Source of the DNA: Cinnamomum chago
Lineage: Eukaryota > Streptophyta > Magnoliopsida > Laurales > Lauraceae
Length of the DNA: 64,000 nucleotides
Assembly (NCBI GenBank): GCA_038049695.1
Contig: CP142456.1
Coordinates: 44,062,001 to 44,126,000 of the forward strand
Reading direction: 5' to 3'
Of this stretch, positions 1-53,339 are shown in pieces. A program made the translations under genes and the position numbers. Position 1 is the first letter of the stretch; the number at the start of each line of letters is the position of its first letter. A model generated the notes under the pieces. It was not told the DNA's origin. It was given only the letters and a program-made list of their open reading frames with translations, and searched no databases.

Positions 1-737
1 ATCACATGTTTAGAGCTAATCCATTTCATACAACTTGTGTAACTTTGATATCATTAACAAGTTGTTACTTTTGACATGTGATTGCATTACTTCCTCAATC
101 ATAAATGTTTTTGAGCTAAAACTTTCAAAAGCCTTAGGCATACATTTATGAGCTTTCATTTACTAAATGATTGAGGATCACACACACACACTTCATTTGT
201 TTTCATCTTTGCATTCATAGTGTGAGTGTGTATTTGTATTTCACTTCCATATCCGCCTATTATAAGAGGCATTGTAATGAGCTTAATTGAATCTCCATCA
301 AGTGTATTAAAGACACTATTTTAGTGAGATAACCAACCTTGTGGTTGAAGAGGTTATTGCTTAGCCTATAAAAGCATAGTGTATAGGTTGATGTTAAGCC
401 TTGAAAAACATCATTGTAAGGTTATTGCTTAGCCTTGGAAAGCATATTGTAAAGGTTATTGCTTAGCCTATTGAAAAGCATAAATAGTGGAAATCCGGTG
501 GGGTGTTGGATCACAAGCCGGTAGTGGATGTAGGCATTGAGGCCGAACCACTATAAATACTTGTGTAATGGTGATTGCTTTGTGGTGATTCTTTTGTTAG
601 CTTCCGCATCTTGTATGTTTAATCATCACATGTGACTAGTTTGTTTTAAAGAAGTTAAAATTGATTAAAATTGGTCATAGTTGAAGCTCACCCTATTCAC
701 CCCCCCTCTAGGGTTCGGATCCCCATGGAATTACAAG

Positions 738-749
738 TGGTATCAGAGC
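738..749 (+). other. Primer-binding site (tRNA-iMet type), E1 unit 1
   Basis: TGGTATCAGAGC lies 2 bp after the LTR end, matching the 3' end of plant initiator tRNA-Met. The same site recurs at 5232-5243 and 9726-9737. It is absent after the last LTR (14217 onward), confirming that this LTR is the terminal one. Confidence 0.9.
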
Positions 750-883
750 GGGTTACTCCATTTTAGGGCTTAACAACCCGGAGTTGATCCTTGCTAGATT
801 TGAACCCTAGTGTTGTGTTTTTAATGCATATCTTTATGATGATTTCCACTATGTTTGAAAATGATATTTCCCTAGCCTCATTG

Positions 884-3185
884 CACCACTCTTAGTCTTT
901 TTCAAGTTATATCTTTAAGAGTTGGTGAGTCCTCAAAGTGATCTCTCAAGGACACCTTTTCAAGACCTTAGGTGTATTTTCAAAGGTAGACTATTTGAGT
1001 AACCTTAAGGCCTTGATACCCCTAGACCAACCTATGCTTTTTAGTTATATCTTTTTGTTGGTCATGTTACATTTGCATTTTGTTTCTTTAAAGTCACATC
1101 TTTTAAAATGCAATGTTTCTTTGTGATCATTTGATTTTGTCTTCATGATCTTTTAAGTTATATCTCATGGTTTTCAAAATCCTTTGATTGCAATTCTTTC
1201 ATGATGGATTTGCATGTTGTTCATTTAGTTATATCTCTTGTTGTGCATATCTATTCATGATCAATTGATTGTGATTACAAATGCTTTCATAGCTAGTTTT
1301 TCATGATCAATTGATGTTGGAAAATCATTTGATGATTGTCATAGTTATATCCTTTTTGGAAATCAAATGATTTGAAGCAACTTTAGTTTTCCATTGATTT
1401 ACAAGTTATATCTTTTGATATGGAAAATTTGTAAGTGTCTATTGTTTTTACAAATTGAAAACTTTACAATAGTACACTTCTTGTTTTTCAAAATCACTTG
1501 CTCTTAATTCTATAAATGATCCTTTGTTGGAATTTCATACATTGAAGTGATTTGAGAAACTTTGGAAAATGTTCTAAGCTTTATTAGTTATATTTATAGA
1601 AGCATTTTCCTTGAATTTATTTCCTTGTGCCTAACTATGATTATATCATTTGGAAGGAAATAATTTTTACAAACAATTTGCATCTTTGCTCATTTAGTGA
1701 CATTATTTATGCAAATTGATTTTGTTGTCTTACATTGCATGGTTGGATATGGTTTCATTGATTTGCATGTTTGTGCCTATTTTGGTATATAGTTTCTTTA
1801 ATGCAAATTAATGAGTGTTTATGTGCTTTATAGTAAAATCTTGTATTTGAGCTTTTTAAGTGCATTTGTGATTTTATGTGCTAAGTTCATTTGGTATAAA
1901 CCTCATATCTATTGTCCATTGCATTGTAAGCTTAGTACATTTGCTAAGAGTGGAGATGTTACATGATAGATTGATCCTTTTAACCTCATACCTTCTTGTG
2001 CTTAATTAGTAATATTCTTTTTAATGATTGGTATGAGTTAGATCTTGAGTGTTGATTAATCCTCTCTATGCAAATGTCAAATTGTTCTATGTATGGTTGT
2101 GGTATTTATTATATTTGTTGAAACCTTACTAGAACTAAAATCCATCCTCTATGCACTCATGTCATATCTTTTTGGATGGTTATGATGTTGATTCATGTAT
2201 TTTCTCTAAGTGATATCTTCCTTATACATGTCTCAACCTCATAGTAGTGCCTTGATCATATGAAACTCTTTGAAATCCATTCCTCATATTTCTATGTGTT
2301 TGATGGATAACTTAGATGTTGAATTCATATGATTTAGTCACTTTATAAATTGCATGCATTTCAAAGTCATATCCTTGTGCATTGCAATTTATCTTGTTCA
2401 TCACTATACTCAATAGTTATATCTTTAAAAGTGATGAATATGCATTTATGATGCTTGATGGAATTTTGTGTTTGCCACATTCTTGCTCTTTATCATGTTA
2501 TCAAATTCAATTGGTTTCAATTGGTATAATGTTTGATTGATTTGATTTCTTGTGAATGTGATAAATCTTGTGTGCATTGGATTGAACTTGATAAGTAATA
2601 TGATTGTTCCATGTCACACACCATTAGCATCATAATGCTCATGTTGCCACCTCTCTTGCTCATATAGGTATATCTCATGACCACCATGTTTATGTGTTCA
2701 TAATATTGGTTGGTTATTAGTTGAGGTTGGCTTCATGTTTGAATTTCATTTCACTCAATTTGCACTTTAATAAGTCATATTTATTGATTGAATGAAATGA
2801 TTTTCAAAATCTTACATAGCATATGTTTTTCATAAGTTATATTGATTGATGCTATGTTTGAGTAAACCCCATATCATGGATAGCTCTAATTTGGATTTCT
2901 CATGATAGTTATATTTCTAAATCCATTTTAGAGTGATTGATTTATTAAGTCATATCCTAAATCTCAATTGGTATTCTTTGTTTGTTCAATTGATATCCAT
3001 GATTGCTTTTCTCATTTGACCTAGCTCTCTTTTGGTAATTTGATCATATTGTGCTTTATAGTTAAATGAATCTAATCCTTTCTTTGAAGTTGACCCTCAC
3101 TTGGTTAAACCATCTTCTTCTTGTACCTAATAGTTAAATCTTTGTCAAGAGTTTGACAAAAGAAGAGAATGGATTGAGGGGGAGT
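884..3185 (+). repeat. Array of short inverted repeats with AGTTATATC-like loops (E1 interior; also 5378-7679 and 9872-12173)
   Basis: No coding sequence is evident. The stretch is a run of short inverted repeats with arms of 7-15 bp and spacers of about 20-35 bp, and most spacers hold a variant of AGTTATATC. Examples (left arm/right arm): 884-894/916-927; 1025-1031/1057-1063; 1075-1081/1105-1111; 1322-1333/1362-1373; 1387-1394/1420-1427; 1564-1571/1603-1610; 1617-1626/1654-1663; 1674-1683/1709-1718; 2397-2405/2430-2438; 2814-2822/2849-2857; 2884-2898/2919-2933. Each stem has its own sequence; the loops share the motif. The remnant of the gag C-terminus survives only near 950-1020. Confidence 0.85.
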
Positions 3186-3676
3186 GTAAACCTTCATAGG
3201 AAGTATTAGTTGTGATCAAATTGACCATTGGAATGCCTTTGAGCCCTTAGAGACTACTATCTCACATGATAGCCTGTTATGCATTTCATTTTCGATTTCA
3301 ATTGTTAACAGGTGCTACTAATGGTATTTTCCTTGTTTCATGTGTGTAGGTACCTTTGCAATTTAATGGCAAAGGGGGAGAAATTATGCAAGTTCTCAAA
3401 AGGGTGAAGAGAAAGTCCAAGCTTCCAAAGGGGAGTGTTGTGTATGATCTTCTACAAAGGGAGAGAATGCATACCTTGCCAAATGGGAGAAAGAGGCATG
3501 GTCAAAGGGGGAGAGCAAATAGAAGAAACAAAGCTTGGAGCTAAAGAATATGCTTGGCTAAAGAAAGAAAGATTGGAGAATGATCAAGCACCAAGCATCA
3601 TGAAGAATGAAGAAAAGAGCCCAAGCTAAGAGAAGCATCCAAGAAGATTTCAAGACTTGTCCAGCTGAGGGGGAGC

Positions 3677-5229
3677 TGAAGATTTCATTCTCTGATACCA
3701 GAAGTTAAACCACCAAGTAGGCTCTTCCTTTCTTAATCATATGTTTGCATGCTTTTGTTTTATTTTTGGTAAATCATTTCTAGCATGTTAAACTATGTTT
3801 GTGTTGTGTCCTTAACATATTTTATGTTTTGAGTTGATTTATTGTTTTGGATACAACACCATATGATTCAATCCAAGTAGTACTTGAATTGGTAAATCAA
3901 AGTAGATCATGTTAATGAAAGAAACTTGGTAAATCATATGTAACATGATTCCTATACTTGGTTGAATCTTTGGTTGTTGTTTTCCATCATAAGAAAATCA
4001 CTTTCAAAAGTATCTTATGTTTTGGACTCAACTTCTTTACAAATCATATGTTTTCATGTTTTGTTTTATCATTGGTAAATCTTGTAACATGTTAACCTAT
4101 GATGTGTTGTATCCTTAGCATGTGTTATATTTTGAATAGATCTATTGTTTTGGATACATCACCATTGATTCATCAAAGTAGTACTTTATCTTTGGTAAAT
4201 CTAAGTAGATCATGTTAATGAAATATGTAACATGATTCATATACTTTGTTGAATCATTGGTTGTTGTTTTTCCATCATAAGAAAATCTCTCTCAAATGTA
4301 TCTTATGTTTTGGATCCAACATCATTACAAATCATATGTGCATTATTGTTTTAAAGTTTCACAACTTGCATCACTTTGATAGGTAAATCATTTTCAAGTT
4401 GTCCTTATAATTACATATGATTTGTCCCCTCTTTTCAATCAAATCTATTTTTATGTTTTGAGCTTCATTGATGATTTGATTGACATCCCTATGCATCACA
4501 TGTTTAGAGCTAATCCATTTCATACAACTTGTGTAACTTTGATATCATTAACAAGTTGTTACTTTTGACATGTGATTGCATTACTTCCTCAATCATAAAT
4601 GTTTTTGAGCTAAAACTTTCAAAAGCCTTAGGCATACATTTATGAGCTTTCATTTACTAAATGATTGAGGATCACACACACACACTTCATTTGTTTTCAT
4701 CTTTGCATTCATAGTGTGAGTGTGTATTTGTATTTCACTTCCATATCCGCCTATTATAAGAGGCATTGTAATGAGCTTAATTGAATCTCCATCAAGTGTA
4801 TTAAAGACACTATTTTAGTGAGATAACCAACCTTGTGGTTGAAGAGGTTATTGCTTAGCCTATAAAAGCATAGTGTATAGGTTGATGTTAAGCCTTGAAA
4901 AACATCATTGTAAGGTTATTGCTTAGCCTTGGAAAGCATATTGTAAAGGTTATTGCTTAGCCTATTGAAAAGCATAAATAGTGGAAATCCGGTGGGGTGT
5001 TGGATCACAAGCCGGTAGTGGATGTAGGCATTGAGGCCGAACCACTATAAATACTTGTGTAATGGTGATTGCTTTGTGGTGATTCTTTTGTTAGCTTCCG
5101 CATCTTGTATGTTTAATCATCACATGTGACTAGTTTGTTTTAAAGAAGTTAAAATTGATTAAAATTGGTCATAGTTGAAGCTCACCCTATTCACCCCCCC
5201 TCTAGGGTTCGGATCCCCATGGAATTACA
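3677..5229 (+). mobile_element. LTR of E1 (equivalent copies at 1-735 partial, 8171-9723, 12665-14216)
   Basis: The 3' end is fixed by the PBS that follows (PBS at 738-749 and equivalents) and by the clean break to foreign DNA at 14217. The 5' end is inferred. A GAGGGGGAGC purine tract at 3667-3676 is followed by TGAAGATTTC, giving a TG...CA LTR of about 1.55 kb. Related LTRs (E2, E3) start with TGTTAGGG, and their first several hundred bases are absent here, so the boundary could be different. The body shares the GGTAAATC hairpins, the TTAGCC repeats and the terminal C-tract plus CTCTAGGGTT with E2 and E3. Confidence 0.7.
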
Positions 5230-8200
5230 AGTGGTATCAGAGCGGGTTACTCCATTTTAGGGCTTAACAACCCGGAGTTGATCCTTGCTAGATTTGAACC
5301 CTAGTGTTGTGTTTTTAATGCATATCTTTATGATGATTTCCACTATGTTTGAAAATGATATTTCCCTAGCCTCATTGCACCACTCTTAGTCTTTTTCAAG
5401 TTATATCTTTAAGAGTTGGTGAGTCCTCAAAGTGATCTCTCAAGGACACCTTTTCAAGACCTTAGGTGTATTTTCAAAGGTAGACTATTTGAGTAACCTT
5501 AAGGCCTTGATACCCCTAGACCAACCTATGCTTTTTAGTTATATCTTTTTGTTGGTCATGTTACATTTGCATTTTGTTTCTTTAAAGTCACATCTTTTAA
5601 AATGCAATGTTTCTTTGTGATCATTTGATTTTGTCTTCATGATCTTTTAAGTTATATCTCATGGTTTTCAAAATCCTTTGATTGCAATTCTTTCATGATG
5701 GATTTGCATGTTGTTCATTTAGTTATATCTCTTGTTGTGCATATCTATTCATGATCAATTGATTGTGATTACAAATGCTTTCATAGCTAGTTTTTCATGA
5801 TCAATTGATGTTGGAAAATCATTTGATGATTGTCATAGTTATATCCTTTTTGGAAATCAAATGATTTGAAGCAACTTTAGTTTTCCATTGATTTACAAGT
5901 TATATCTTTTGATATGGAAAATTTGTAAGTGTCTATTGTTTTTACAAATTGAAAACTTTACAATAGTACACTTCTTGTTTTTCAAAATCACTTGCTCTTA
6001 ATTCTATAAATGATCCTTTGTTGGAATTTCATACATTGAAGTGATTTGAGAAACTTTGGAAAATGTTCTAAGCTTTATTAGTTATATTTATAGAAGCATT
6101 TTCCTTGAATTTATTTCCTTGTGCCTAACTATGATTATATCATTTGGAAGGAAATAATTTTTACAAACAATTTGCATCTTTGCTCATTTAGTGACATTAT
6201 TTATGCAAATTGATTTTGTTGTCTTACATTGCATGGTTGGATATGGTTTCATTGATTTGCATGTTTGTGCCTATTTTGGTATATAGTTTCTTTAATGCAA
6301 ATTAATGAGTGTTTATGTGCTTTATAGTAAAATCTTGTATTTGAGCTTTTTAAGTGCATTTGTGATTTTATGTGCTAAGTTCATTTGGTATAAACCTCAT
6401 ATCTATTGTCCATTGCATTGTAAGCTTAGTACATTTGCTAAGAGTGGAGATGTTACATGATAGATTGATCCTTTTAACCTCATACCTTCTTGTGCTTAAT
6501 TAGTAATATTCTTTTTAATGATTGGTATGAGTTAGATCTTGAGTGTTGATTAATCCTCTCTATGCAAATGTCAAATTGTTCTATGTATGGTTGTGGTATT
6601 TATTATATTTGTTGAAACCTTACTAGAACTAAAATCCATCCTCTATGCACTCATGTCATATCTTTTTGGATGGTTATGATGTTGATTCATGTATTTTCTC
6701 TAAGTGATATCTTCCTTATACATGTCTCAACCTCATAGTAGTGCCTTGATCATATGAAACTCTTTGAAATCCATTCCTCATATTTCTATGTGTTTGATGG
6801 ATAACTTAGATGTTGAATTCATATGATTTAGTCACTTTATAAATTGCATGCATTTCAAAGTCATATCCTTGTGCATTGCAATTTATCTTGTTCATCACTA
6901 TACTCAATAGTTATATCTTTAAAAGTGATGAATATGCATTTATGATGCTTGATGGAATTTTGTGTTTGCCACATTCTTGCTCTTTATCATGTTATCAAAT
7001 TCAATTGGTTTCAATTGGTATAATGTTTGATTGATTTGATTTCTTGTGAATGTGATAAATCTTGTGTGCATTGGATTGAACTTGATAAGTAATATGATTG
7101 TTCCATGTCACACACCATTAGCATCATAATGCTCATGTTGCCACCTCTCTTGCTCATATAGGTATATCTCATGACCACCATGTTTATGTGTTCATAATAT
7201 TGGTTGGTTATTAGTTGAGGTTGGCTTCATGTTTGAATTTCATTTCACTCAATTTGCACTTTAATAAGTCATATTTATTGATTGAATGAAATGATTTTCA
7301 AAATCTTACATAGCATATGTTTTTCATAAGTTATATTGATTGATGCTATGTTTGAGTAAACCCCATATCATGGATAGCTCTAATTTGGATTTCTCATGAT
7401 AGTTATATTTCTAAATCCATTTTAGAGTGATTGATTTATTAAGTCATATCCTAAATCTCAATTGGTATTCTTTGTTTGTTCAATTGATATCCATGATTGC
7501 TTTTCTCATTTGACCTAGCTCTCTTTTGGTAATTTGATCATATTGTGCTTTATAGTTAAATGAATCTAATCCTTTCTTTGAAGTTGACCCTCACTTGGTT
7601 AAACCATCTTCTTCTTGTACCTAATAGTTAAATCTTTGTCAAGAGTTTGACAAAAGAAGAGAATGGATTGAGGGGGAGTGTAAACCTTCATAGGAAGTAT
7701 TAGTTGTGATCAAATTGACCATTGGAATGCCTTTGAGCCCTTAGAGACTACTATCTCACATGATAGCCTGTTATGCATTTCATTTTCGATTTCAATTGTT
7801 AACAGGTGCTACTAATGGTATTTTCCTTGTTTCATGTGTGTAGGTACCTTTGCAATTTAATGGCAAAGGGGGAGAAATTATGCAAGTTCTCAAAAGGGTG
7901 AAGAGAAAGTCCAAGCTTCCAAAGGGGAGTGTTGTGTATGATCTTCTACAAAGGGAGAGAATGCATACCTTGCCAAATGGGAGAAAGAGGCATGGTCAAA
8001 GGGGGAGAGCAAATAGAAGAAACAAAGCTTGGAGCTAAAGAATATGCTTGGCTAAAGAAAGAAAGATTGGAGAATGATCAAGCACCAAGCATCATGAAGA
8101 ATGAAGAAAAGAGCCCAAGCTAAGAGAAGCATCCAAGAAGATTTCAAGACTTGTCCAGCTGAGGGGGAGCTGAAGATTTCATTCTCTGATACCAGAAGTT

Positions 8201-11200
8201 AAACCACCAAGTAGGCTCTTCCTTTCTTAATCATATGTTTGCATGCTTTTGTTTTATTTTTGGTAAATCATTTCTAGCATGTTAAACTATGTTTGTGTTG
8301 TGTCCTTAACATATTTTATGTTTTGAGTTGATTTATTGTTTTGGATACAACACCATATGATTCAATCCAAGTAGTACTTGAATTGGTAAATCAAAGTAGA
8401 TCATGTTAATGAAAGAAACTTGGTAAATCATATGTAACATGATTCCTATACTTGGTTGAATCTTTGGTTGTTGTTTTCCATCATAAGAAAATCACTTTCA
8501 AAAGTATCTTATGTTTTGGACTCAACTTCTTTACAAATCATATGTTTTCATGTTTTGTTTTATCATTGGTAAATCTTGTAACATGTTAACCTATGATGTG
8601 TTGTATCCTTAGCATGTGTTATATTTTGAATAGATCTATTGTTTTGGATACATCACCATTGATTCATCAAAGTAGTACTTTATCTTTGGTAAATCTAAGT
8701 AGATCATGTTAATGAAATATGTAACATGATTCATATACTTTGTTGAATCATTGGTTGTTGTTTTTCCATCATAAGAAAATCTCTCTCAAATGTATCTTAT
8801 GTTTTGGATCCAACATCATTACAAATCATATGTGCATTATTGTTTTAAAGTTTCACAACTTGCATCACTTTGATAGGTAAATCATTTTCAAGTTGTCCTT
8901 ATAATTACATATGATTTGTCCCCTCTTTTCAATCAAATCTATTTTTATGTTTTGAGCTTCATTGATGATTTGATTGACATCCCTATGCATCACATGTTTA
9001 GAGCTAATCCATTTCATACAACTTGTGTAACTTTGATATCATTAACAAGTTGTTACTTTTGACATGTGATTGCATTACTTCCTCAATCATAAATGTTTTT
9101 GAGCTAAAACTTTCAAAAGCCTTAGGCATACATTTATGAGCTTTCATTTACTAAATGATTGAGGATCACACACACACACTTCATTTGTTTTCATCTTTGC
9201 ATTCATAGTGTGAGTGTGTATTTGTATTTCACTTCCATATCCGCCTATTATAAGAGGCATTGTAATGAGCTTAATTGAATCTCCATCAAGTGTATTAAAG
9301 ACACTATTTTAGTGAGATAACCAACCTTGTGGTTGAAGAGGTTATTGCTTAGCCTATAAAAGCATAGTGTATAGGTTGATGTTAAGCCTTGAAAAACATC
9401 ATTGTAAGGTTATTGCTTAGCCTTGGAAAGCATATTGTAAAGGTTATTGCTTAGCCTATTGAAAAGCATAAATAGTGGAAATCCGGTGGGGTGTTGGATC
9501 ACAAGCCGGTAGTGGATGTAGGCATTGAGGCCGAACCACTATAAATACTTGTGTAATGGTGATTGCTTTGTGGTGATTCTTTTGTTAGCTTCCGCATCTT
9601 GTATGTTTAATCATCACATGTGACTAGTTTGTTTTAAAGAAGTTAAAATTGATTAAAATTGGTCATAGTTGAAGCTCACCCTATTCACCCCCCCTCTAGG
9701 GTTCGGATCCCCATGGAATTACAAGTGGTATCAGAGCGGGTTACTCCATTTTAGGGCTTAACAACCCGGAGTTGATCCTTGCTAGATTTGAACCCTAGTG
9801 TTGTGTTTTTAATGCATATCTTTATGATGATTTCCACTATGTTTGAAAATGATATTTCCCTAGCCTCATTGCACCACTCTTAGTCTTTTTCAAGTTATAT
9901 CTTTAAGAGTTGGTGAGTCCTCAAAGTGATCTCTCAAGGACACCTTTTCAAGACCTTAGGTGTATTTTCAAAGGTAGACTATTTGAGTAACCTTAAGGCC
10001 TTGATACCCCTAGACCAACCTATGCTTTTTAGTTATATCTTTTTGTTGGTCATGTTACATTTGCATTTTGTTTCTTTAAAGTCACATCTTTTAAAATGCA
10101 ATGTTTCTTTGTGATCATTTGATTTTGTCTTCATGATCTTTTAAGTTATATCTCATGGTTTTCAAAATCCTTTGATTGCAATTCTTTCATGATGGATTTG
10201 CATGTTGTTCATTTAGTTATATCTCTTGTTGTGCATATCTATTCATGATCAATTGATTGTGATTACAAATGCTTTCATAGCTAGTTTTTCATGATCAATT
10301 GATGTTGGAAAATCATTTGATGATTGTCATAGTTATATCCTTTTTGGAAATCAAATGATTTGAAGCAACTTTAGTTTTCCATTGATTTACAAGTTATATC
10401 TTTTGATATGGAAAATTTGTAAGTGTCTATTGTTTTTACAAATTGAAAACTTTACAATAGTACACTTCTTGTTTTTCAAAATCACTTGCTCTTAATTCTA
10501 TAAATGATCCTTTGTTGGAATTTCATACATTGAAGTGATTTGAGAAACTTTGGAAAATGTTCTAAGCTTTATTAGTTATATTTATAGAAGCATTTTCCTT
10601 GAATTTATTTCCTTGTGCCTAACTATGATTATATCATTTGGAAGGAAATAATTTTTACAAACAATTTGCATCTTTGCTCATTTAGTGACATTATTTATGC
10701 AAATTGATTTTGTTGTCTTACATTGCATGGTTGGATATGGTTTCATTGATTTGCATGTTTGTGCCTATTTTGGTATATAGTTTCTTTAATGCAAATTAAT
10801 GAGTGTTTATGTGCTTTATAGTAAAATCTTGTATTTGAGCTTTTTAAGTGCATTTGTGATTTTATGTGCTAAGTTCATTTGGTATAAACCTCATATCTAT
10901 TGTCCATTGCATTGTAAGCTTAGTACATTTGCTAAGAGTGGAGATGTTACATGATAGATTGATCCTTTTAACCTCATACCTTCTTGTGCTTAATTAGTAA
11001 TATTCTTTTTAATGATTGGTATGAGTTAGATCTTGAGTGTTGATTAATCCTCTCTATGCAAATGTCAAATTGTTCTATGTATGGTTGTGGTATTTATTAT
11101 ATTTGTTGAAACCTTACTAGAACTAAAATCCATCCTCTATGCACTCATGTCATATCTTTTTGGATGGTTATGATGTTGATTCATGTATTTTCTCTAAGTG

Positions 11201-14200
11201 ATATCTTCCTTATACATGTCTCAACCTCATAGTAGTGCCTTGATCATATGAAACTCTTTGAAATCCATTCCTCATATTTCTATGTGTTTGATGGATAACT
11301 TAGATGTTGAATTCATATGATTTAGTCACTTTATAAATTGCATGCATTTCAAAGTCATATCCTTGTGCATTGCAATTTATCTTGTTCATCACTATACTCA
11401 ATAGTTATATCTTTAAAAGTGATGAATATGCATTTATGATGCTTGATGGAATTTTGTGTTTGCCACATTCTTGCTCTTTATCATGTTATCAAATTCAATT
11501 GGTTTCAATTGGTATAATGTTTGATTGATTTGATTTCTTGTGAATGTGATAAATCTTGTGTGCATTGGATTGAACTTGATAAGTAATATGATTGTTCCAT
11601 GTCACACACCATTAGCATCATAATGCTCATGTTGCCACCTCTCTTGCTCATATAGGTATATCTCATGACCACCATGTTTATGTGTTCATAATATTGGTTG
11701 GTTATTAGTTGAGGTTGGCTTCATGTTTGAATTTCATTTCACTCAATTTGCACTTTAATAAGTCATATTTATTGATTGAATGAAATGATTTTCAAAATCT
11801 TACATAGCATATGTTTTTCATAAGTTATATTGATTGATGCTATGTTTGAGTAAACCCCATATCATGGATAGCTCTAATTTGGATTTCTCATGATAGTTAT
11901 ATTTCTAAATCCATTTTAGAGTGATTGATTTATTAAGTCATATCCTAAATCTCAATTGGTATTCTTTGTTTGTTCAATTGATATCCATGATTGCTTTTCT
12001 CATTTGACCTAGCTCTCTTTTGGTAATTTGATCATATTGTGCTTTATAGTTAAATGAATCTAATCCTTTCTTTGAAGTTGACCCTCACTTGGTTAAACCA
12101 TCTTCTTCTTGTACCTAATAGTTAAATCTTTGTCAAGAGTTTGACAAAAGAAGAGAATGGATTGAGGGGGAGTGTAAACCTTCATAGGAAGTATTAGTTG
12201 TGATCAAATTGACCATTGGAATGCCTTTGAGCCCTTAGAGACTACTATCTCACATGATAGCCTGTTATGCATTTCATTTTCGATTTCAATTGTTAACAGG
12301 TGCTACTAATGGTATTTTCCTTGTTTCATGTGTGTAGGTACCTTTGCAATTTAATGGCAAAGGGGGAGAAATTATGCAAGTTCTCAAAAGGGTGAAGAGA
12401 AAGTCCAAGCTTCCAAAGGGGAGTGTTGTGTATGATCTTCTACAAAGGGAGAGAATGCATACCTTGCCAAATGGGAGAAAGAGGCATGGTCAAAGGGGGA
12501 GAGCAAATAGAAGAAACAAAGCTTGGAGCTAAAGAATATGCTTGGCTAAAGAAAGAAAGATTGGAGAATGATCAAGCACCAAGCATCATGAAGAATGAAG
12601 AAAAGAGCCCAAGCTAAGAGAAGCATCCAAGAAGATTTCAAGACTTGTCCAGCTGAGGGGGAGCTGAAGATTTCATTCTCTGATACCAGAAGTTAAACCA
12701 CCAAGTAGGCTCTTCCTTTCTTAATCATATGTTTGCATGCTTTTGTTTTATTTTTGGTAAATCATTTCTAGCATGTTAAACTATGTTTGTGTTGTGTCCT
12801 TAACATATTTTATGTTTTGAGTTGATTTATTGTTTTGGATACAACACCATATGATTCAATCCAAGTAGTACTTGAATTGGTAAATCAAAGTAGATCATGT
12901 TAATGAAAGAAACTTGGTAAATCATATGTAACATGATTCCTATACTTGGTTGAATCTTTGGTTGTTGTTTTCCATCATAAGAAAATCACTTTCAAAAGTA
13001 TCTTATGTTTTGGACTCAACTTCTTTACAAATCATATGTTTTCATGTTTTGTTTTATCATTGGTAAATCTTGTAACATGTTAACCTATGATGTGTTGTAT
13101 CCTTAGCATGTGTTATATTTTGAATAGATCTATTGTTTTGGATACATCACCATTGATTCATCAAAGTAGTACTTTATCTTTGGTAAATCTAAGTAGATCA
13201 TGTTAATGAAATATGTAACATGATTCATATACTTTGTTGAATCATTGGTTGTTGTTTTTCCATCATAAGAAAATCTCTCTCAAATGTATCTTATGTTTTG
13301 GATCCAACATCATTACAAATCATATGTGCATTATTGTTTTAAAGTTTCACAACTTGCATCACTTTGATAGGTAAATCATTTTCAAGTTGTCCTTATAATT
13401 ACATATGATTTGTCCCCTCTTTTCAATCAAATCTATTTTTATGTTTTGAGCTTCATTGATGATTTGATTGACATCCCTATGCATCACATGTTTAGAGCTA
13501 ATCCATTTCATACAACTTGTGTAACTTTGATATCATTAACAAGTTGTTACTTTTGACATGTGATTGCATTACTTCCTCAATCATAAATGTTTTTGAGCTA
13601 AAACTTTCAAAAGCCTTAGGCATACATTTATGAGCTTTCATTTACTAAATGATTGAGGATCACACACACACACTTCATTTGTTTTCATCTTTGCATTCAT
13701 AGTGTGAGTGTGTATTTGTATTTCACTTCCATATCCGCCTATTATAAGAGGCATTGTAATGAGCTTAATTGAATCTCCATCAAGTGTATTAAAGACACTA
13801 TTTTAGTGAGATAACCAACCTTGTGGTTGAAGAGGTTATTGCTTAGCCTATAAAAGCATAGTGTATAGGTTGATGTTAAGCCTTGAAAAACATCATTGTA
13901 AGGTTATTGCTTAGCCTTGGAAAGCATATTGTAAAGGTTATTGCTTAGCCTATTGAAAAGCATAAATAGTGGAAATCCGGTGGGGTGTTGGATCACAAGC
14001 CGGTAGTGGATGTAGGCATTGAGGCCGAACCACTATAAATACTTGTGTAATGGTGATTGCTTTGTGGTGATTCTTTTGTTAGCTTCCGCATCTTGTATGT
14101 TTAATCATCACATGTGACTAGTTTGTTTTAAAGAAGTTAAAATTGTTAAAATTGGTCATAAAAGAAGCTCACCCTATTCACCCCCCCTCTAGGGTTCGGA

Positions 14201-14216
14201 TCCCCATGGAATTACA

Positions 14217-15325
14217 ATATCTATGTTTATACCTGTTTTTAAATGATACCCGATTTGTTAAGTATCCATGCTTTGAAATATGTTTCAAATGACACTTGTT
14301 TGCCAGATTCCTATGTTTATACCTGTTTTAAATGATTACCCGATTCGTTAAATATCCATGCTTTGAAATATGTTTCAAATGACACTTGTTTGCCAGATCC
14401 CTACGTTTATACCTGTTTTAAACGATATCCGATTTGTTAAATATCCGCATTTCTACATAGGTTTCAAATGGACATTGGTTTTGCTAGACTGCTATGAATA
14501 CCTGGTTTGTTGTATACTTATATTTTTACTTAAGTTTCAAATGAACGTTGTTTTGCCATACCACTATAATTATACATGTTTTAGACGAACACCCGATTGT
14601 CAAATATCTATGATTATAGATGATGTAAACGAACACATGTTTTATTAGATAGTCATGTTTTACCCATGCTTGAAATGAATACAGGTTTTCCCCGAGATTC
14701 CCGACTTTGCACCCGTTTAATTATATGCAGCATTTGATCGAATAGCATGATTTATCTTATGTTTTATTCTTCAGTATATTTGTTATCTCTTCATCCACCT
14801 TCCAGACCGTCGTGTCTGACCCACTACTTTTGGTACTCAGGTTCAGATTTCTTCTCCCCGAGTTGAGTGTTTTATTGGCTGTGGAGCCATGCCTTGCAGG
14901 TTGGTTTGTCGGCTATGTCATGTAGACATTGAGCTTGACATCGGAGCTACGTCACATTTGGGTAGTAGTTTATAGCTTATTGTTGTATGGCTTTTATTAG
15001 CCTTTTCTTGGGACTCTTAATTAATGTACATTGATAATTGTAACTTGAACATATTTGGGAATGTAATATCCTGTTACTGTCAGCTCTGTAATTTATTGTG
15101 ATGGTTACTCCAGTCTGATATGATTCTTGATATATTGGTTATATGCTAAAGGTTGAGTGCGACGCGGAATCCGATGGCCACGGACTTCGGGTCGCAACGC
15201 CACAAAAGCTTCCGCAAAATATTCAAAATGTGTTGTCTTCACACACGCGGATCTTGGGAGAAGTAAAATACATTTATGCTTTAATCCCATTCCCGCCCCC
15301 GAGGTTTCGGTTCGGGGGCGTGACA
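14217..15325 (+). mobile_element. 3' part of an L2-family LTR, plus orientation
   Basis: The segment ends in GGGGGCGTGACA, as does the reversed solo LTR at 28969-33282, whose left 1.3 kb is its reverse complement. It shares a block around 14808-14845 (CCGTCGTGTCTGACCC) with the L2 copy near 38960. The E1 array interrupts its upstream part. It begins with the 90-bp repeats annotated separately. Confidence 0.75.
14221..14690 (+). repeat. Degenerate tandem repeat, about 90-bp unit, inside the L2 LTR
   Basis: The word CTATGTTTATACCTG recurs at 14221 and 14311, and as CTACGTTTATACCTG at 14401, giving a 90-bp period. Later units are shorter and more diverged, to about 14690. The reverse complement of the same repeat fills about 29640-30240. 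Confidence 0.8.
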
Positions 15326-23481: not shown

Positions 23482-23817
23482 TTGCAATTACATTTTGATG
23501 TTTCCTGCTATGTCTGTCATCTTATAATTTGTATACATAAAGGCCAAATGAATGACAAATTGCCCTTTTGGACAATAAAGTAGGACCTAAAATGAACTTT
23601 GATGGCCCATTCATAAAGAGTAATGTCTCATCAAGTGTTCATTTAGAAGGAATCAATGATATTATAATACTTGAAAGGTAATATTTGATTTAGAGATTAT
23701 TTACGGCCATGATTTGTACTTTGAAACTCTTTATTTGAACATTCAGTTTCTTGAAAACATTGGAAGGGGATAAAAACTGACTTTAATGTTTGTGTCAATT
23801 TGGGCCAAGTGGGAGAA

Positions 23818-34667: not shown

Positions 34668-34689
34668 GGCCTTGAACCTCATTGACCAA

Positions 34690-36500
34690 CCTTTCCTTTC
34701 AAGTTAAATCATATTGTTGGTCATGTTGCATTTGCATTTTGTTCTTTCTTAGTTACATTTCTTAAAATGCATTGTTTCTTTATGATCAATTGATTTTGTC
34801 TTCATGCACCATTCTAGTTACATATCATGGTTTTCAAAATCTTTTGATTATAATTTCATCATGTTAGATTTGCTTTTTGCACTCATTGAGTTACATGACT
34901 TGCATTGCATTTCTTTACATGATCAATTGATTGTGATTTCAAAAGCTTTCATAGCTAGATTATTCATGATCAATTGTCGTTGCAAAATCATTTGTGTAGA
35001 TGTCATGGTAAGATTATTTGAACAAATGATTTGAATCAACTTAAGTTTTCCATGGATTTCTAAGTTATACTTTTATATGGAAAATCATTGTTTTGAAAAA
35101 TCAACTTGTATGTGTTTCATTTAAGTTATATCTTTTAAAATACAATGTTGAAAATTGTTCTTCAAAGTCATTCTTTTTATGCTTATTGTTGGATTTTGTT
35201 TATTGAAATGATTTGAAGATTGTATGAATGGAAATGCTCTAAAACATCATTAGTTATAATCATCTAAGCATGTTCCATGTTCTCATTTCCTTTCCTTTTG
35301 GTTTCATCATCTTAGAAATGGAAATGAATGTTGTTTGCATGTTTCCTTACTTGTTTACATTCTTTTATATGCAAATGTCAAATTGTTCTAAGTATGGTTG
35401 TGATATTAGTTATATTTGTAGAAACCATACTAGAACTCTCAAATCCATCCTCTATGCACTCTAGTCATATCTTTTTGGATGGTTATGATGTTGATTCATG
35501 TATATTTTCTTAGTGATGTCATTCTTATACATGTTTCAACTTCATAGTAGTGTTCTTGATCATATGAAACTCTTTGAAATCCATTCCTCATATTTCTATA
35601 TGGTTGATGGGTATCTTAGAAGTTGAATTCATATGATTTTGACACTTTGAAAATTGCATGCATTTCCAAGTTATATCCTTTTGCATTGCAATTTATCTTG
35701 TTCGTCACTATGCTCATTAGTTATATCATTAAAAGTGATGAATATCCATTTATGTTGCTTGATGGAATTTTGTGTTTGTCACATCCTTGCTATTAATCAT
35801 GTTGTCATATTCAATTGGTTTCATTTGGTATAATTTTCCATTGATTTCATATCCAATTGATGTCTTATCTTGTGAATGTGATAGACCTTGTGTACATTGG
35901 ATTGAACTTGATAGTTATATATTTGTTCCATGTCACACACCATTAGCATCATAATTTTCATGATTGCATCCTCCCTTGCTTATATAGGTAAATCTCATGA
36001 CCACCATGTTTATGTGATCATAATATTGGTGGGTTAATTGTTGAGGTAGGCTTCATGTTTGAATTTCATTTCACTCATCTTGCACATTAGTAGTCACATT
36101 TTTTGATTGAATGAAATGATTTCAAAGCTTACATAGCATATGATTTTCATAGTTAAATTATTTGATGCTATGTTTAGTAAACCCCATTTATCATGGATAG
36201 CTCTAATTTGGATTTATCTTAATAGTTATATTCTTTATAACTCCATTTTAGAGTGATTGTTTTAATAGACTTATCTTTGAATCTCAATTGGTATTCTTTG
36301 TCTTTTCCAATTGGTATCCATGATCGCTTTTCGCCTTGACCTTACTCTCTTTTGGTAATTTGATCAAATTGTGCTTTATAGTTAAACGAATCTAATCCTT
36401 TCCTTGAAGTTGACTCTCAATTGGTAAAACCATCTTCTTCTTGAACCAAATAGTTATATCTATGTCAAAAGTTTGACAAGATGAGAGAATGGAGTGTGGG
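34690..36500 (+). repeat. E2 hairpin array
   Basis: Homologous to the E1 and E3 arrays but clearly diverged. Stems are retained: 34985-34995/35022-35032 (perfect 11 bp); TTTTCCAT/ATGGAAAA near 35045-35085; ACATAGCAT/ATGCTATGT near 36133-36176; CTCTAATTTGGATTT with its partner near 36200-36255. Loops again hold AGTTATATC variants. No protein-coding potential is evident. Confidence 0.8.
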
Positions 36501-37043
36501 GGAGTGTAAACCTTCATAGGAAGTATTAGTTTTGATCAAATTGACCCTTGGATTAGCTTTGAACCCTTAGAGATGACTTTCATACATGATAACCTGTTAT
36601 GTATTTCATTTTCGATTTCTTTTGTTAACAGGTGCTACTAAAGGTATTTTCCTTGTCTCATGTGTGTAGGTACCTTTGCAATTTAATGTCAAAGGGGGAG
36701 AGAGCATTCAAGTTCTCTAAAGGGGAAGAGATTGTCCCAGCTTCCTAAGGGGAGAGATTGTATGATCTTCTACAGGGGGAGAGAATGCATATCTTGCCAA
36801 AGGGGGAGAGCTATTAGAAGAAAGAAAGCTTGGAGCTAAAGAAGATGCTTGGCCATAGAGAGGAAGATGAAGAGAAAGCTTGAAGATTGATCAAGCACCA
36901 AGCATCAAGAAGATTGAAGAAAAAGCCCAAGAACCCAAGCTAAGAGAAGAAGCATCCAAGAAGATTTCAAGACTTGTCCAGCTTAGGGGGAGCTGAAGAC
37001 TTGGTGTGTAATTTCAAGGATGAGTAAGTTGCCATCAAATTGC

Positions 37044-47827: not shown

Positions 47828-48420
47828 TGTTAGGGATTTTGTATTTGCAATTTGATGGATGCATTAACATATTCATATCATTTGAATTTACACTCTTGCA
47901 TTGTTTTAGAAAACCTTGAAATCTGGTTTTATACATGCATTGCTTTTAAGAATTGTAAAAGTATTGTTTTATGCATGTTTTGTTTCTAAACTTGGATGCA
48001 TTGATTTTAGAATTCAAACTCTTTTGAAAACCTAATTCTTTGTGAATTATATTTGGAAAATCAATTTGAGAAGTTAGGTTTATCCATTGCATACATTCAT
48101 CATTTTCAGAATCAGTTTTATATGCATTCTCATTTGAAAAGAGTTTTATCAAATCAAGCTAGCCTTTGGTTTTAAACTTTTGAATCATTTTAGGCTCTTT
48201 GTGTTTCATCTTTTTAAACATCTTAGAACGACTTATAACATGTTATTTAAGCTTGATTTAGTGGCCAAAAAGTTCCCCAAAGAAATACCTTCAAATGTGC
48301 AAAAGTTGGAAATTTTGCAAAAGGGGAGTGACCTGGCAGTGTCGCCGATCGACCGAGACCTGCTTCCCGGTCGACCGGGAACACTGTCGGTCGAGTGGGC
48401 AGTTTCTGAACTGTAACTTG

Positions 48421-48446
48421 ACAACGGTCAGAAATATGACCGTTGT
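48421..48446 (+). promoter_or_regulatory. Perfect inverted repeat with two AACGG (MYB-type) cores upstream of the TATA box
   Basis: ACAACGGTCA, a 6-bp spacer, TGACCGTTGT, 67 bp upstream of TATAAA (48513). AACGG followed by YYA is the core of the plant mitosis-specific activator element bound by three-repeat MYB proteins; the function here is inference. The arrangement recurs at 53931-53956 and in degraded form in other E LTRs (for example 20916-20940 reversed, 27508-27531 and 37515-37541). Confidence 0.55.
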
Positions 48447-48512
48447 GCTTACTCGGTCGACCGAGACCTCTTTGCAGGTCGACCGAGGACTAGCCGTTGG
48501 GCACTTTTTGGC

Positions 48513-48518
48513 TATAAA
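48513..48518 (+). promoter_or_regulatory. E3 LTR TATA box
   Basis: TATAAA about 30 bp downstream of the palindrome cluster. Conserved at the same place in the 3' LTR and as TATAAAT in E2. Confidence 0.7.
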
Positions 48519-49645
48519 GTCCATTCTTTTCCAACCTTTTTCAAGGCTTGACACATGAACCTTTGAGACCATTTTGGAGCCATTGAAAGGGGATGAAGTT
48601 GGAAAGGCTAGAAGGTCATTAGGAGAGCTAAAGCTTGGATTAATGAGTTAAACCACCAAGTAAGCTCTACCTTTCTTTATCATAGTTTACATGCTTGTTT
48701 AAGTTATTGGTAAATGTTTTTATGCATGATAACTATGATGTGTTGAATCCATTCTACCCTTCATCTTTGATATTCAAGATTGGATTCATCACTTTGATTT
48801 CAACCCAAGTTTTGTTTTAAACTTTCTTAATCATGCTTAGCCTAAATCTTTGATTTCTTTTATTGCATGATTATTTCACTTGGTTAAAACTTCCCTTGTT
48901 GTTTTCATTCATTTAATCTTTAGTCAAATTAGTTTTGAAAACAACATTGCACATGCATCACTTGATTAGGCTTAAACACTTTCATACAACTTGTGATCTT
49001 TAGATTTTCATATCATTCACAAGTGTGTAATTGTTCAAGTGATTTGCATAGAACTTCAATCATATCTTTTTGTGCCTTAAACTTTCGAATTGCATTAAGC
49101 ATAAATTGATTGAGCTTAAATTGAATCTCTTAGAGTGATCTTTTGTGAAGACACTTTCTTAGAGAAATCTTTATTTGTAAAGGTTATTGCTTAGCCTAAG
49201 AAAAGCATCTTGTAAGGTTATTGCTTAGCCTAAGAAAAGCATCTTGTAAGGTTATTGCTTAGCCTAGGAAAAGCATTTTGTAAAGGTTATTGCTTAGCCT
49301 AGAAAAGCACATTGAGAGGTTGTTGTTTAGCCTAGAAAAACAACATTGTAAGGGTTATTGCTTAGCCTAGTAAAAAGCATAAATAGTGGAAATCCGGTGG
49401 GGTGATTAGATCACAAGCCGGTAGTGGACGTAGGCATTGAGGCCGAACCACTATAAACCTTGGTGTTGTGGTGCTTGCTTTTGTGGTGATTGTTTTATTA
49501 GCTTCCGCATATTGTTTGATTAATCATCACATGTGACTAGTTTTTGTTAAGAAGTTAAATTTGTTTTAAATTGGTCACAATTGTAGCTCACCCTATTCAC
49601 CCCCCCCCCCCCCCCTCTAGGGTTAGGATCTCAAGGACTTTCAAT

Positions 49646-49657
49646 TGGTATCAGAGC
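49646..49657 (+). other. E3 primer-binding site (tRNA-iMet)
   Basis: TGGTATCAGAGC, 2 bp after the LTR. Confidence 0.95.
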
Positions 49658-49758
49658 CTCGTGCTCTATCTTATATGATCAAGTGTTTGGAACTCTTGAT
49701 TAGGTGTAAAAACCTAGAGTTTAAACCCTAGTGTTGTGCTTCCATAAAAATCATTAGA

Positions 49759-51327
49759 ATGGATTCCACTAGTTTAGACCTTGTAGATTCTTGTGTAGAT
49801 TCTTCTAGACCCCTCATTCTTCCATCTTATGGAGATTCAAACATTGAAATTAAAGAATCTCAACTTGAATTAAAAGAAGAAGAATTTGATGAACTTGAAG
49901 CCTATGAGGAATTGTACACATGGTCCTTAGAGGTTTCCAAGAAAAATAAAAGATTAAAAGAAGAATCTAAAAGGCTAAACCAAGAATTAGTCTCTTCTAA
50001 AAATGAACTTAGAGAAAAAGATGAATTCATAAATTGTGTAGAATCTAAGTTCATGATCTCTTTGAATAACCTATACAATACTCAAGATGAACTTAAAGAA
50101 TTAAAGATAGGTTATGATCATCTTAATAAGGAAAATCTAAAACTAAGAGATCAATTACAAAGGCAAGATAAAGACTTTAACAATCTTGAATCTAAATTGA
50201 CTATCTCTAAGGAAAATTTATCTAATGCTCAAGATGAATTAAATGAGATTAAGATAAATTGTGATGAGCTTAAAAATGAAAATTTGAACCTAAGAGATAC
50301 AATTAAAAGACAAGATGAAAACATTAACTATTTAAAATCCAAGTTGACAATTTCCAATGAAAATTTGTCTAATGCTCAAAGTAATTTAAAAACTTTAGAA
50401 CTTGGATCTAATGTTGTTAATGAGCTTAAATCTAAGTTAAAACTTGCCTATGATGAGCTAAACAATTTTAAGGGAATTGAAAATGAACTAACAAGAGTTA
50501 AAAATGAAAATTCAACCCTTAAAACCCAAGTCACTCAACTTGAAAGTTATAAACAAAAGTATGAGTGCAAGTTTACCCAAAGTGAAGATAGACTTGAAAA
50601 ATTATTTAAATTGGGTAAACCTCATGGAGATAGGACGGGTCTTGGATTTAATAGGAATATGTCACATGACCCTAAATTCACCAACACTTTTGTGAAAGGT
50701 GAGTCCTCATTCTCTAGCACTCTTTCTCCTTTGCCCAAATCCAAATGTGTTTATTGTGGCAATGAAGGACACTTTAGGTTTGAGTGCAAACTAAGAAGAA
50801 GCCATGTGTCTAAACCCATATTTGAACCCAAAAAGGTAGAATCAAAATCTATGAAGGGTAAGACACTAAAAACCAAAGAAGACTCCAAAAAGATTAAAGA
50901 AGTTAAATCATTTAAAATGGAGTCTCCTAAAATAAATTCTAAAAAGTTTAAACAAGTTAAACCAAGCTTGAAAGAATCTATGAACAAAAAGCTTCTCAAC
51001 CTATCTCCTTTATATCAACCCATGAAAGAACTTTTGAAGAAAGTTGCTAAGTTAAATCTAAAATTCAAAAGTCAAGTAAAGGGAGAAAGTAAGAAGAAAA
51101 GAAAAGAGAAACAATCCCCAAAGAAGCACACTCACCAACATCAAAAGACTAATCACCAATCTAAGCTAAATTTAGTAAAATCTAAATATCATGGTGATAA
51201 GTTTAAATTGAAAATTTATCAAGTCAAATCTCCTTTAGTTGGTGAGAAGTCCAAACTAGACCTCAAAGTTCAACCCTCTCAAGACCTTAGGTGGATTCCT
51301 AAAGTTATTTACCTAGACAAACCTTAG
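49759..51327 (+). CDS. Intact gag-like protein of E3 (coiled coil plus CCHC knuckle)
   Basis: 522 residues. Residues 1-95 are acidic (ELKEEEFDELEAYEELYTW). Residues 96-144 and 145-193 are two copies of a 49-residue coiled-coil unit (SKxxIS.ENL.N.Q.EL...NLRD...RQD), with a partial third from 194. The CCHC knuckle CVYCGNEGHFRFEC is at about 330-343, followed by a very Lys-rich tail ending WIPKVIYLDKP. The knuckle and layout are those of a retrotransposon capsid/nucleocapsid protein, and the tail resembles the pre-protease region of Copia gag; the lineage is inference. The start is the first ATG, about 100 bp after the PBS, shared with E2. The frame is intact while all pol is absent, suggesting selection on gag or very recent insertion. 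Confidence 0.9.
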   Translation: MDSTSLDLVDSCVDSSRPLILPSYGDSNIEIKESQLELKEEEFDELEAYEELYTWSLEVSKKNKRLKEESKRLNQELVSSKNELREKDEFINCVESKFMISLNNLYNTQDELKELKIGYDHLNKENLKLRDQLQRQDKDFNNLESKLTISKENLSNAQDELNEIKINCDELKNENLNLRDTIKRQDENINYLKSKLTISNENLSNAQSNLKTLELGSNVVNELKSKLKLAYDELNNFKGIENELTRVKNENSTLKTQVTQLESYKQKYECKFTQSEDRLEKLFKLGKPHGDRTGLGFNRNMSHDPKFTNTFVKGESSFSSTLSPLPKSKCVYCGNEGHFRFECKLRRSHVSKPIFEPKKVESKSMKGKTLKTKEDSKKIKEVKSFKMESPKINSKKFKQVKPSLKESMNKKLLNLSPLYQPMKELLKKVAKLNLKFKSQVKGESKKKRKEKQSPKKHTHQHQKTNHQSKLNLVKSKYHGDKFKLKIYQVKSPLVGEKSKLDLKVQPSQDLRWIPKVIYLDKP

Positions 51328-51339
51328 GGCCTTGAACCT

Positions 51340-52800: not shown

Positions 52801-53338
52801 TCGATTGAGGGGGAGTGTAAACCTTCATAGGAAGTATTAGTTTTGATCAAATTGACCCTTGGATTGCCTTTGAGCCCTTAGAGACTACTTCCATACATGA
52901 TAGCCTGTTATGTATTTCATTTTCGATTTCATTTGTTAACAGGTGCTACTAAAGGTATTTTCCTTATTTCATGTGTGTAGGTACCTTTGCAATTTAATGT
53001 CAAAGGGGGAGAGAGTTCGAGTACTCAAAGATCTCCTATTCTTCAAAGGGGAGAGTACCAAAGGGAGAAAGAGGCATGGTCAAAGGGGGAGAGCAAATAG
53101 AAGAAAGAAAGCTTGGAGCTAAAGAAAATGCTTGGTCATAAAGAGGAAGATGAATAGAAAGCTTGAAGTTTGATCAAGCACCAATCATCAAGAAGATTGA
53201 AGAAGAGAGCCCAAGAGCCCAAGCTAAGAGGCGGAGCACCCAAGAAGATTTCAAGACTTGTCCAGCTTAGGGGGAGCTGAAGACTTGTTGTGTTAATTCA
53301 ATGATAAGTAAGTTGTCATCAAATTGCAAAGGGGGAGA
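52800..53338 (+). other. Run of polypurine-like tracts ending in the E3 PPT
   Basis: AGGGGGAG-type tracts occur near 52807, 53004, 53037, 53083 and 53269, and finally AAAGGGGGAGA at 53328-53338, directly before the 3' LTR. The same series is present in E1 (3175, 3371, 3503, 3667) and E2. Only the last should prime plus-strand synthesis in a standard element. Confidence 0.7.
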
Positions 53339-53339
53339 T

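Follow-up and report, generated by a model that had tools for sequence, protein, structure and literature searches.

A dense array of sequence-different hairpins sharing one loop word in a non-autonomous, probably Sirevirus-derived LTR element family of Cinnamomum chago

The window, that is, the whole 64,000-nucleotide stretch of the Cinnamomum chago genome analysed here, carries three related hairpin arrays, located in the tandem E units at its start, in el3, and in the intact LTR element el2. The main features are as follows.

1..14217, + strand: E tandem array of 3.16 identical 4494-bp units; the 3' end of an LTR closes the array
738..749, + strand: PBS TGGTATCAGAGC of E unit 1; further sites at 5232, 9726, 28800, and 49646
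884..3185, + strand: hairpin array of E unit 1, with 24 stems called; exact duplicates at 5378-7679 and 9872-12173
3371..3513, + strand: repeated polypurine tracts (PPTs) 3' of the E array, starting at 3371, 3427, and 3504
3703..5227, + strand: LTR-derived part of the E unit, without the 5' part of U3; more hairpins, some with GGTAAATC loops
34668..36505, + strand: el3 hairpin array; the gag-like ORF is broken into pieces (33232-34260 and 34203-34667), with other insertions 5'
47828..55157, + strand: el2, intact non-autonomous LTR element; LTRs ~99% identical, TSD GGATG
49759..51327, + strand: el2 gag-like ORF; coiled coil and one CCHC zinc knuckle, without pol
51343..52815, + strand: el2 hairpin array
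53328..53353, + strand: el2 terminal PPT AAAGGGGGAGAT and LTR start TGTTAGGG, flanked by the inverted repeat CATCAAATTGCAAA/TTTGCAATTTGATG

The three full E copies were 100% identical and the last was partial; because the units are identical, the arrays at 884, 5378, and 9872 represent one array seen three times, or an assembly tandem of that copy number. Among the copies listed in the initial annotation, those at 5378-7679 and 9872-12173 are therefore exact tandem duplicates, and only the arrays near 34.7 and 51.3 kb are diverged relatives (el2 and el3 were 77–89% alike to E over the longer aligned blocks). The order of el2 was LTR, PBS TGGTATCAGAGC, gag-like ORF, array, repeated PPTs, and terminal PPT/LTR. 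The array had been described as lying where pol should be, which fits the order in el2, but E lacks gag as well. No ORF of at least 120 aa besides gag was found in el2, and none at all in positions 1-14217, where the longest frame within 750-3690 had 73 aa. The longest further frames of el2 and E had 62 and 73 aa, respectively, and ten + strand frames contained no Pfam family above cutoff. In the E units of the window, the ORF body (gag), the terminal PPT, and the 5' part of U3 have all been lost, whereas the tandem E-type copies L014 and L015 (spacing 5200 and 5229 bp, respectively) retain a PPT-LTR junction with the terminal PPT. A reverse transcriptase fragment at 22640-23188 was considered as the pol of the family; a related LTR precedes it without an intervening PBS, and the fragment was not assigned to the family.

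The gag-like ORF encodes a coiled-coil-like region N-terminal to a single CCHC; no capsid-domain Pfam match was obtained for it, and zf-CCHC scored above cutoff in the homologue P0002 only. Of 8448 first-look candidates in the genome searched (1.06 Gb, 14 contigs), 82 gag matches were scored, many of which are tandem copies. In-frame stops were absent from 56 of the 82, and the open frames measured 522–532 aa in all but one. The pN/pS ratios of the ORF, computed from single-nucleotide changes in 49 copies, were 0.39 for internal branches and 0.52 for terminal ones, showing that it is under purifying selection; together with the open frames, these ratios indicate that the gag-only form is maintained. 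The protein database yielded two gag relatives, without genomic context, among the 7991 candidates sharing most words. The gag relative P0001 was 82% identical, which suggests a related source. Neither the DNA words nor the gag protein recovered relatives in viral contigs, where the five loci that carried the pattern matched E over 16–22 bases only, and no relatives were found in the prokaryote genomes searched.

Several features placed the family close to Sireviruses. The PBS TGGTATCAGAGC downstream of the 5' LTR, which presumably pairs with initiator Met tRNA, is present as in Sireviruses, which use an initiator-Met-tRNA PBS. The PPTs of el2 (53002, 53045, 53082, and 53328) and its terminal AAAGGGGGAGAT/TGTTAGGG junction (AT then TG) also correspond, as do, by eye, the 14-bp inverted repeat CATCAAATTGCAAA/TTTGCAATTTGATG at the PPT/3'LTR junction and the CGG-CCG palindromes CGGTCGACCG and related copies in the LTR. 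Described Sirevirus hallmarks include several PPTs, the last of which abuts a constant attachment site, an inverted repeat spanning the PPT/3'LTR junction, palindromic boxes with a CGG-CCG signature that lie in the LTR upstream of the TATA box, and a CCHC plus a coiled coil (PMC2829016). The Sirevirus gag is large, with a central CCHC and the coiled coil downstream; in el2 a coiled-coil-like region precedes the single CCHC. Sireviruses have pol, while el2 and E have a hairpin array in its place and no pol ORF. The family is therefore filed, on these sequence traits, as a probably Sirevirus-derived, non-autonomous, LARD-like element rather than as a full Sirevirus member. LARDs such as Sukkula are non-autonomous LTR elements with conserved RNA structure (PMC7215508). 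Their trait of zero protein-coding capacity applies to E but not to el2, which has the gag-like ORF, and their conserved structure of the internal-domain RNA has its counterpart in the conserved stems of the E family, with a moderate case for RNA over DNA. The part of PMC7215508 that describes LARDs mentions no hairpin array with a shared loop word, and the relatives of E, unlike LARDs, keep a gag-like ORF.

Inverted repeats (perfect arms of at least 8, loop of at most 60) were counted and compared with 40 dinucleotide shuffles. The E array (884-3185) contained 19, compared with a shuffle mean of 3.8 (maximum, 10); the el2 and el3 arrays contained 11 and 16, respectively, compared with means of 2.3 (maximum, 6) and 3.5 (maximum, 8). 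All three arrays thus exceeded their shuffle maxima. Four control stretches contained 3, 3, 5, and 8 (shuffle means, 2.0–2.9), the last of them (22300-24600) lying above its own shuffle maximum of 6. The excess extends beyond the array, since the E LTR core (9 vs. a mean of 2.3; maximum, 8) and positions 50000-51215 of the el2 gag ORF (9 vs. 2.3; maximum, 5) were enriched too. By a second caller, two controls had densities of 2.7 and 3.8 stems per kb; densities reached 7.9 and 8.8 in two LTRs and 8.0–9.7 in the three arrays when their 3' flanks were included. The stems differed in sequence and were AT-rich, with long loops, mostly >20 nt. The idea of a continuous series of inverted repeats held as to density, but the arms make up only about one-fourth of E and coverage has gaps. 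Local folding of E left 2 of the 24 stems without predicted pairing probability, and folding-energy z-scores (120 nt) showed a modest excess, at −1.4 for E and el2 and −0.9 for el3, compared with −0.4 and −0.3 in two controls. Individual hairpins of the first E unit are listed below.

884..928, + strand: hairpin CACCACTCTTA-loop with AGTTATATC-TAAGAGTTGGTG; 888-922 called, outer pairs beyond a bulge seen by eye
1025..1063, + strand: hairpin GACCAAC..AGTTATATC..GTTGGTC; recurs after gag in el2, el3, L068, L070, L071, and L072
1073..1113, + strand: hairpin TTGCATTTT..AGTCACATC..AAAATGCAA
1322..1373, + strand: 12-bp hairpin, loop AGTTATATC
1617..1663, + strand: hairpin TTATTTCCTT/AAGGAAATAA with GATTATATC in the loop; an example in the initial annotation
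1674..1718, + strand: hairpin CAATTTGCAT/ATGCAAATTG with AGTGACATT in the loop; likewise an example there
2345..2438, + strand: adjacent hairpin pair, loops AGTCATATC and AGTTATATC
2738..2933, + strand: three adjacent motif hairpins (2738-2808, 2814-2857, and 2884-2933)

The two example stems, 1617-1626/1654-1663 and 1674-1683/1709-1718, proved to be exact inverted repeats, while a third one cited, 2884-2898/2919-2933, is present as a 15-bp stem but contains mismatches. By eye, the L069 counterpart of the hairpin at 1025..1063 has one G-U pair.

The motif AGTYAYAT occurred 14 times in E, compared with a mean of 0.34 and a maximum of 2 in 200 shuffles, and 7 and 12 times in the el2 and el3 arrays, respectively (~0.3 expected each), but not once in the E LTR or in two control stretches. 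It has one orientation only: the exact 8-mer AGTTATAT was absent from the − strand of the whole window. The figure of about twenty motifs per unit applies to the degenerate form RGTNAHATY (19), whereas each E unit has 7 exact copies of AGTTATATC. When loops were called blind to the motif, they contained 11 of the 14 AGTYAYAT copies in E (expected fraction 0.27, p = 1e-4), 5 of 7 in el2 (p = 0.006), and 8 of 12 in el3 (p = 0.003), with an expected share of 21–27% over the three arrays. The motif was thus concentrated in loops rather than equally frequent outside them and, given the shuffle comparison of stem density, neither of the two outcomes that the initial annotation had named as counting against it was observed. 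The claim that the spacers share the motif was true of part of the array, as 13 of the 24 recurrent stems had it in half or more of their copies but the other 11 lacked it in most.

The geometry of the motif loops was compared in a set of 45 non-identical, partly homologous loops from E, el2, el3, and L070. The distance from the 5' arm to the motif was 8–12 nt in 32 loops, and that from the motif to the 3' arm was 4–7 nt in 26. The motif flanks (−8 to −1 and +9 to +12) contained ~4% G, whereas G made up 15% of the arms and 17% of outside sequence; the invariant letters of the motif itself are set by the search pattern. G depletion across the motif loops overall was weak (0.115 vs. 0.154 in arms), and the near flanks alone were G-poor. 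By local folding, the motif was more often unpaired than matched 9-mers in E (0.64 vs. 0.46, p < 0.001) and el3 (0.64 vs. 0.47, p = 0.001), and not significantly so in el2 (0.56 vs. 0.49, p = 0.16).

Across the genome, two AGTTATATC words 40–70 bases apart were found at 2443 exact places, compared with 13 for the reversed pattern; these places do not equal elements, since more than one pair is possible per element. A 201-bp piece specific to E gave 1753 candidates, and all 40 that were scored, including the window and tandem copies, were 98–100% identical and lay on 11 contigs. Tandem arrays of the family recur at several places in the genome. Through the more distant gag P0002, we retrieved L070, L071, and L072, in which an array lies downstream of gag, with 19, 20, and 19 stems compared with 8.7, 6.9, and 7.1 in shuffles, respectively. 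L068 (13 stems vs. 4.7; maximum, 8) and L069 (8 vs. 4.7; maximum, 8) retain the first hairpin directly 3' of gag; the motif is not enriched in them, and another ORF then follows.

The gag body was absent from all seven E-type copies that were read, and in all seven the first array hairpin (CACCACTCT... loop with AGTTATATC or a variant ...AGAGTTGGTG) was located at the end of the gag sequence. In the window, the loop and 3' arm of this hairpin (884..928) are homologous to the 3' end of the el2 gag-like ORF, and by eye they align without gaps with the gag codons of el2, L019, and L028. Following loss of the ORF, the former 3' stretch of gag became a motif hairpin, which may have arisen under selection.

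The stems of the array are conserved across clades. Stems were called in a single sequence and variation was scored in other copies, with base adjustment and circular-shift nulls. E stems were scored in the gag clade, and stems of el2, el3, L037, L043, and L064 in both the E clade and the gag clade. Arms were less variable than loops in all 11 comparisons (p ≤ 0.0013) and less variable than outside sequence in 10 of them with p < 0.03 and in one with p = 0.06. In six of the 11, stems called in one of the two clades (E or gag) were scored in the other; the comparisons are overlapping rather than independent. The same single-reference test on gag-coding stems placed arms below loops for five of five references (p 0.00–0.04) and below outside sequence with p values of 0.02–0.21. 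As the gag-coding region is both rich in hairpins and conserved in its stems, constraint on structure may cover the whole internal RNA, beyond the array.

Two apparent signals on recurrent stems were discarded. In 36 and 56 copies, after nine duplicate or overlapping loci were dropped, arms seemed to change about three times more slowly than loops, but this was an artefact: the arm, loop, and outside rates were 0.37, 1.01, and 0.75 in the array and 0.37, 1.03, and 0.70 in the gag-coding control, respectively, an equality ascribed to the caller favouring conserved columns. Changes that preserved pairing made up 86 of 249 in the array and 30 of 79 in gag, with no excess in the array. Pairing was kept by 20 of 39 variants shared by at least three copies, compared with 13 of 67 singletons; this comparison came from recurrent stems and was uncontrolled, and was set aside.

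Substitutions within pairs were used to distinguish between RNA and DNA. By parsimony, 69 changes from A-T pairs led to G-U and 24 to A-C (p = 3e-6 against equal odds), while outside stems A>G and T>C changes proceeded at similar rates (terminal branches, 0.22 and 0.20; internal branches, 0.32 and 0.26). G-C pairs showed no G-U excess (12 vs. 11). Over all pairs, 81 G-U and 35 A-C changes were counted, where a G-U fraction of 0.577 was expected (p = 0.008), and the stem-bootstrap interval of the overall G-U fraction, 0.57–0.83, touches the neutral expectation; the gag-coding control, with fewer events, gave 0.62 (0.41–0.78). Double changes from one Watson-Crick pair to another on internal branches numbered 3 at true pairs and 0 in each of six slid controls, and on terminal branches 2 at true pairs and 0–3 in the slid controls. 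Folding-energy z-scores did not differ between strands. With the G-U excess on one side and the interval touching neutrality, the null result at G-C pairs, and the strand-equal z-scores on the other, the sequence-based case that the structure acts as + strand RNA is moderate.

The initial annotation had envisaged a transcript folding into a string of similar hairpins displaying one motif, and this picture is backed by stem density, loop placement, accessibility, and cross-clade conservation of stems. Our preferred reading, to which we assign a probability of about 0.4, is that the array of this non-autonomous, Sirevirus-derived LTR element acts in cis as a multi-site RNA signal and is bound by a zinc-knuckle Gag-like protein. 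The genomic transcript would fold locally into ~13–24 short hairpins, many of which would expose a UAGUUAUAUC-like word, often ~10 nt past the 5' arm and with nearly G-free motif flanks. Candidate binders are the coiled-coil/CCHC protein of the family itself and the Gag of an autonomous Sirevirus. Retroviral zinc knuckles favour unpaired G, and a zinc-knuckle reading suits the loops because the motif G sits in an otherwise G-poor stretch. Such a protein may bind the repeated loops cooperatively, and the bound RNA would enter a particle or RNP where the polymerase of the partner copies it, so that the array would serve as a putative packaging or protein-binding scaffold. With a signal that is in cis and repeated, copies without any coding capacity (E) could keep spreading, and sequence freed from coding, such as the old 3' end of gag in E, could be turned into further hairpins. 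The abundance of E-type copies suggests that their RNAs may be mobilised in trans, another trait of LARDs. Somewhat doubtful is the wider proposal that the lineage swapped its enzyme genes for a growing, evolvable hairpin array, which a coiled-coil/zinc-knuckle Gag fragment without a capsid would read as a dispersed packaging code; new hairpins would arise de novo where coding sequence has been freed, and derivatives without gag would act as parasites.

Structure may instead have been selected over the whole transcript, for compaction, stability, or escape from silencing or translation, with the loop word being secondary or a site for a host protein. The richness of the LTR and the gag-coding sequence in inverted repeats, the conservation of gag stems, and the many stems without the motif all agree with this explanation, as does the related word GGTAAATC, which does occur in LTR hairpins (by eye). 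However, neither the E LTR nor two controls contain AGTYAYAT, which is oriented and lies in loops, often at a similar distance from the arm; mere compaction requires no oriented, loop-placed motif and is disfavoured, and we consider selection on overall structure an unlikely account, though one to be taken seriously. A mutational origin is improbable. Template switching during reverse transcription or replication could make and perfect hairpins without function, and hairpins have been reported to be created and maintained in one step by this process (Monttinen and Loytynoja 2022, PMC8794818). That the stems differ in sequence and that a gag-derived stretch became a hairpin in E are as expected from it, but it predicts no oriented shared loop word, no slower arms in an independent clade, and no excess of changes from A-U to G-U.

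A role at the DNA level, in which the inverted repeats form cruciforms or are bound by proteins in DNA or cDNA during integration or recombination, would accord with the recurrence of tandem arrays and with folding z-scores that are equal between strands; it is made quite improbable by the asymmetry of G-U over A-C changes, even though this is not seen at G-C pairs, and by the single orientation of the motif. Chance hairpins in AT-rich filler of a decayed element, suggested by the AT-rich stems, the long loops, and the one of four control stretches that exceeded its own shuffles, are very improbable given the shuffle controls, the motif placement, and the conservation across clades. The orientation of the motif and its place in loops disfavour template switching, a DNA role, and chance alike.

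If the array is a cis signal bound by a Gag-like protein, its closest functional parallels lie among viruses. In STNV, MS2, and parechovirus, multiple stem-loops promote assembly via contacts with capsid protein. Such dispersed packaging signals lie mostly inside coding RNA. The array resembles them in that many stem-loops share a motif (about half of the recurrent stems here), with binding putative in our case, and differs from them in being a dense non-coding array within an LTR retrotransposon. The Sirevirus gag/pol boundary carries a motif with an 11-bp stem and a 4-nt loop, as reported in PMC5009743, unlike the array stems with loops of mostly >20 nt. Tandem arrays are known from Cassandra, as LTR-internal-LTR units (PMC7215508), and from the TRIM Wukong (PMC4528315); the E family is tandem like these, but they are miniature elements, and Cassandra has 5S-like LTRs, whereas the units here measure 4.5–6 kb. 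The window gave no Rfam match at gathering score, and hence none to a hammerhead ribozyme or 5S rRNA-like sequence as in retrozymes or Cassandra. Among the titles and abstract openings listed by searches of mainly open-access literature, none described an LTR element with a hairpin array sharing a loop motif. Conserved RNA structure is already known from non-autonomous LTR elements; within the scope of these searches, a dense array of sequence-different hairpins with one loop word appears to be new.

The array bears on how LTR elements empty of coding sequence are recognised and copied. If the array is a recognition code, each genome would hold many natural variants of a single rule, in which the stem is free and the loop word is kept, and, if this is true, the idea of dispersed packaging signals would extend to plant retrotransposons. 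The E family also illustrates the formation of a hairpin on sequence that formerly coded for protein.

LTR-internal tandem arrays arise repeatedly in this family, and 3 to 12 near-identical units of 4.5–6 kb were observed, both in the window and elsewhere in the same genome (G000):

Window 1-14217, tandem LTR-internal array
G000 C6:29404347-29440952, tandem LTR-internal array
G000 C8:54718024-54728681, tandem LTR-internal array
G000 C2:37229062-37283561, tandem LTR-internal array
G000 C1:77729778-77797187, tandem LTR-internal array

At window 3702-3703, the E units (4494-bp repeats of the first array) lack the terminal polypurine tract as well as roughly 870 bp that take in the 5' U3; the counterpart in the intact element el2 lies at about window 53285-54160. 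Despite this loss, the units were amplified in tandem, perhaps from circles.

Inverted repeats also exceeded the dinucleotide-shuffle mean outside the hairpin array (9 vs. 2.3 in both the gag-coding stretch of el2, window 50000-51215, and the E LTR, window 3690-5220), and stems in the gag-coding sequence were likewise conserved. Palindromes similar to the CGG-CCG boxes described in Sireviruses were located in LTRs:

Window 37410-37600, CGGTCGACCG-type palindromes
Window 53845-54000, CGGTCGACCG-type palindromes

A related LTR (window 21560-22255) adjoins the following fragment, and no primer binding site was found between the two:

Window 22640-23188, Copia-type reverse transcriptase fragment (Pfam RVT_2)

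Two other gag copies from the same genome carry an ORF 3' of gag:

L068 1307-1999, ORF after gag, start MARTKQTARRPPKKS
L069 about 1405-2001, ORF after gag, start MARTKQTSRRPSK

The Transposase_32 match of this ORF was under the Pfam cutoff, and a PDB sequence search with the first 30 residues of the L068 ORF returned 0 matches. Both starts resemble the histone H3 tail, ARTKQTARKS. The product of the ORF, a protein of a plant retroelement, may possibly mimic a histone.
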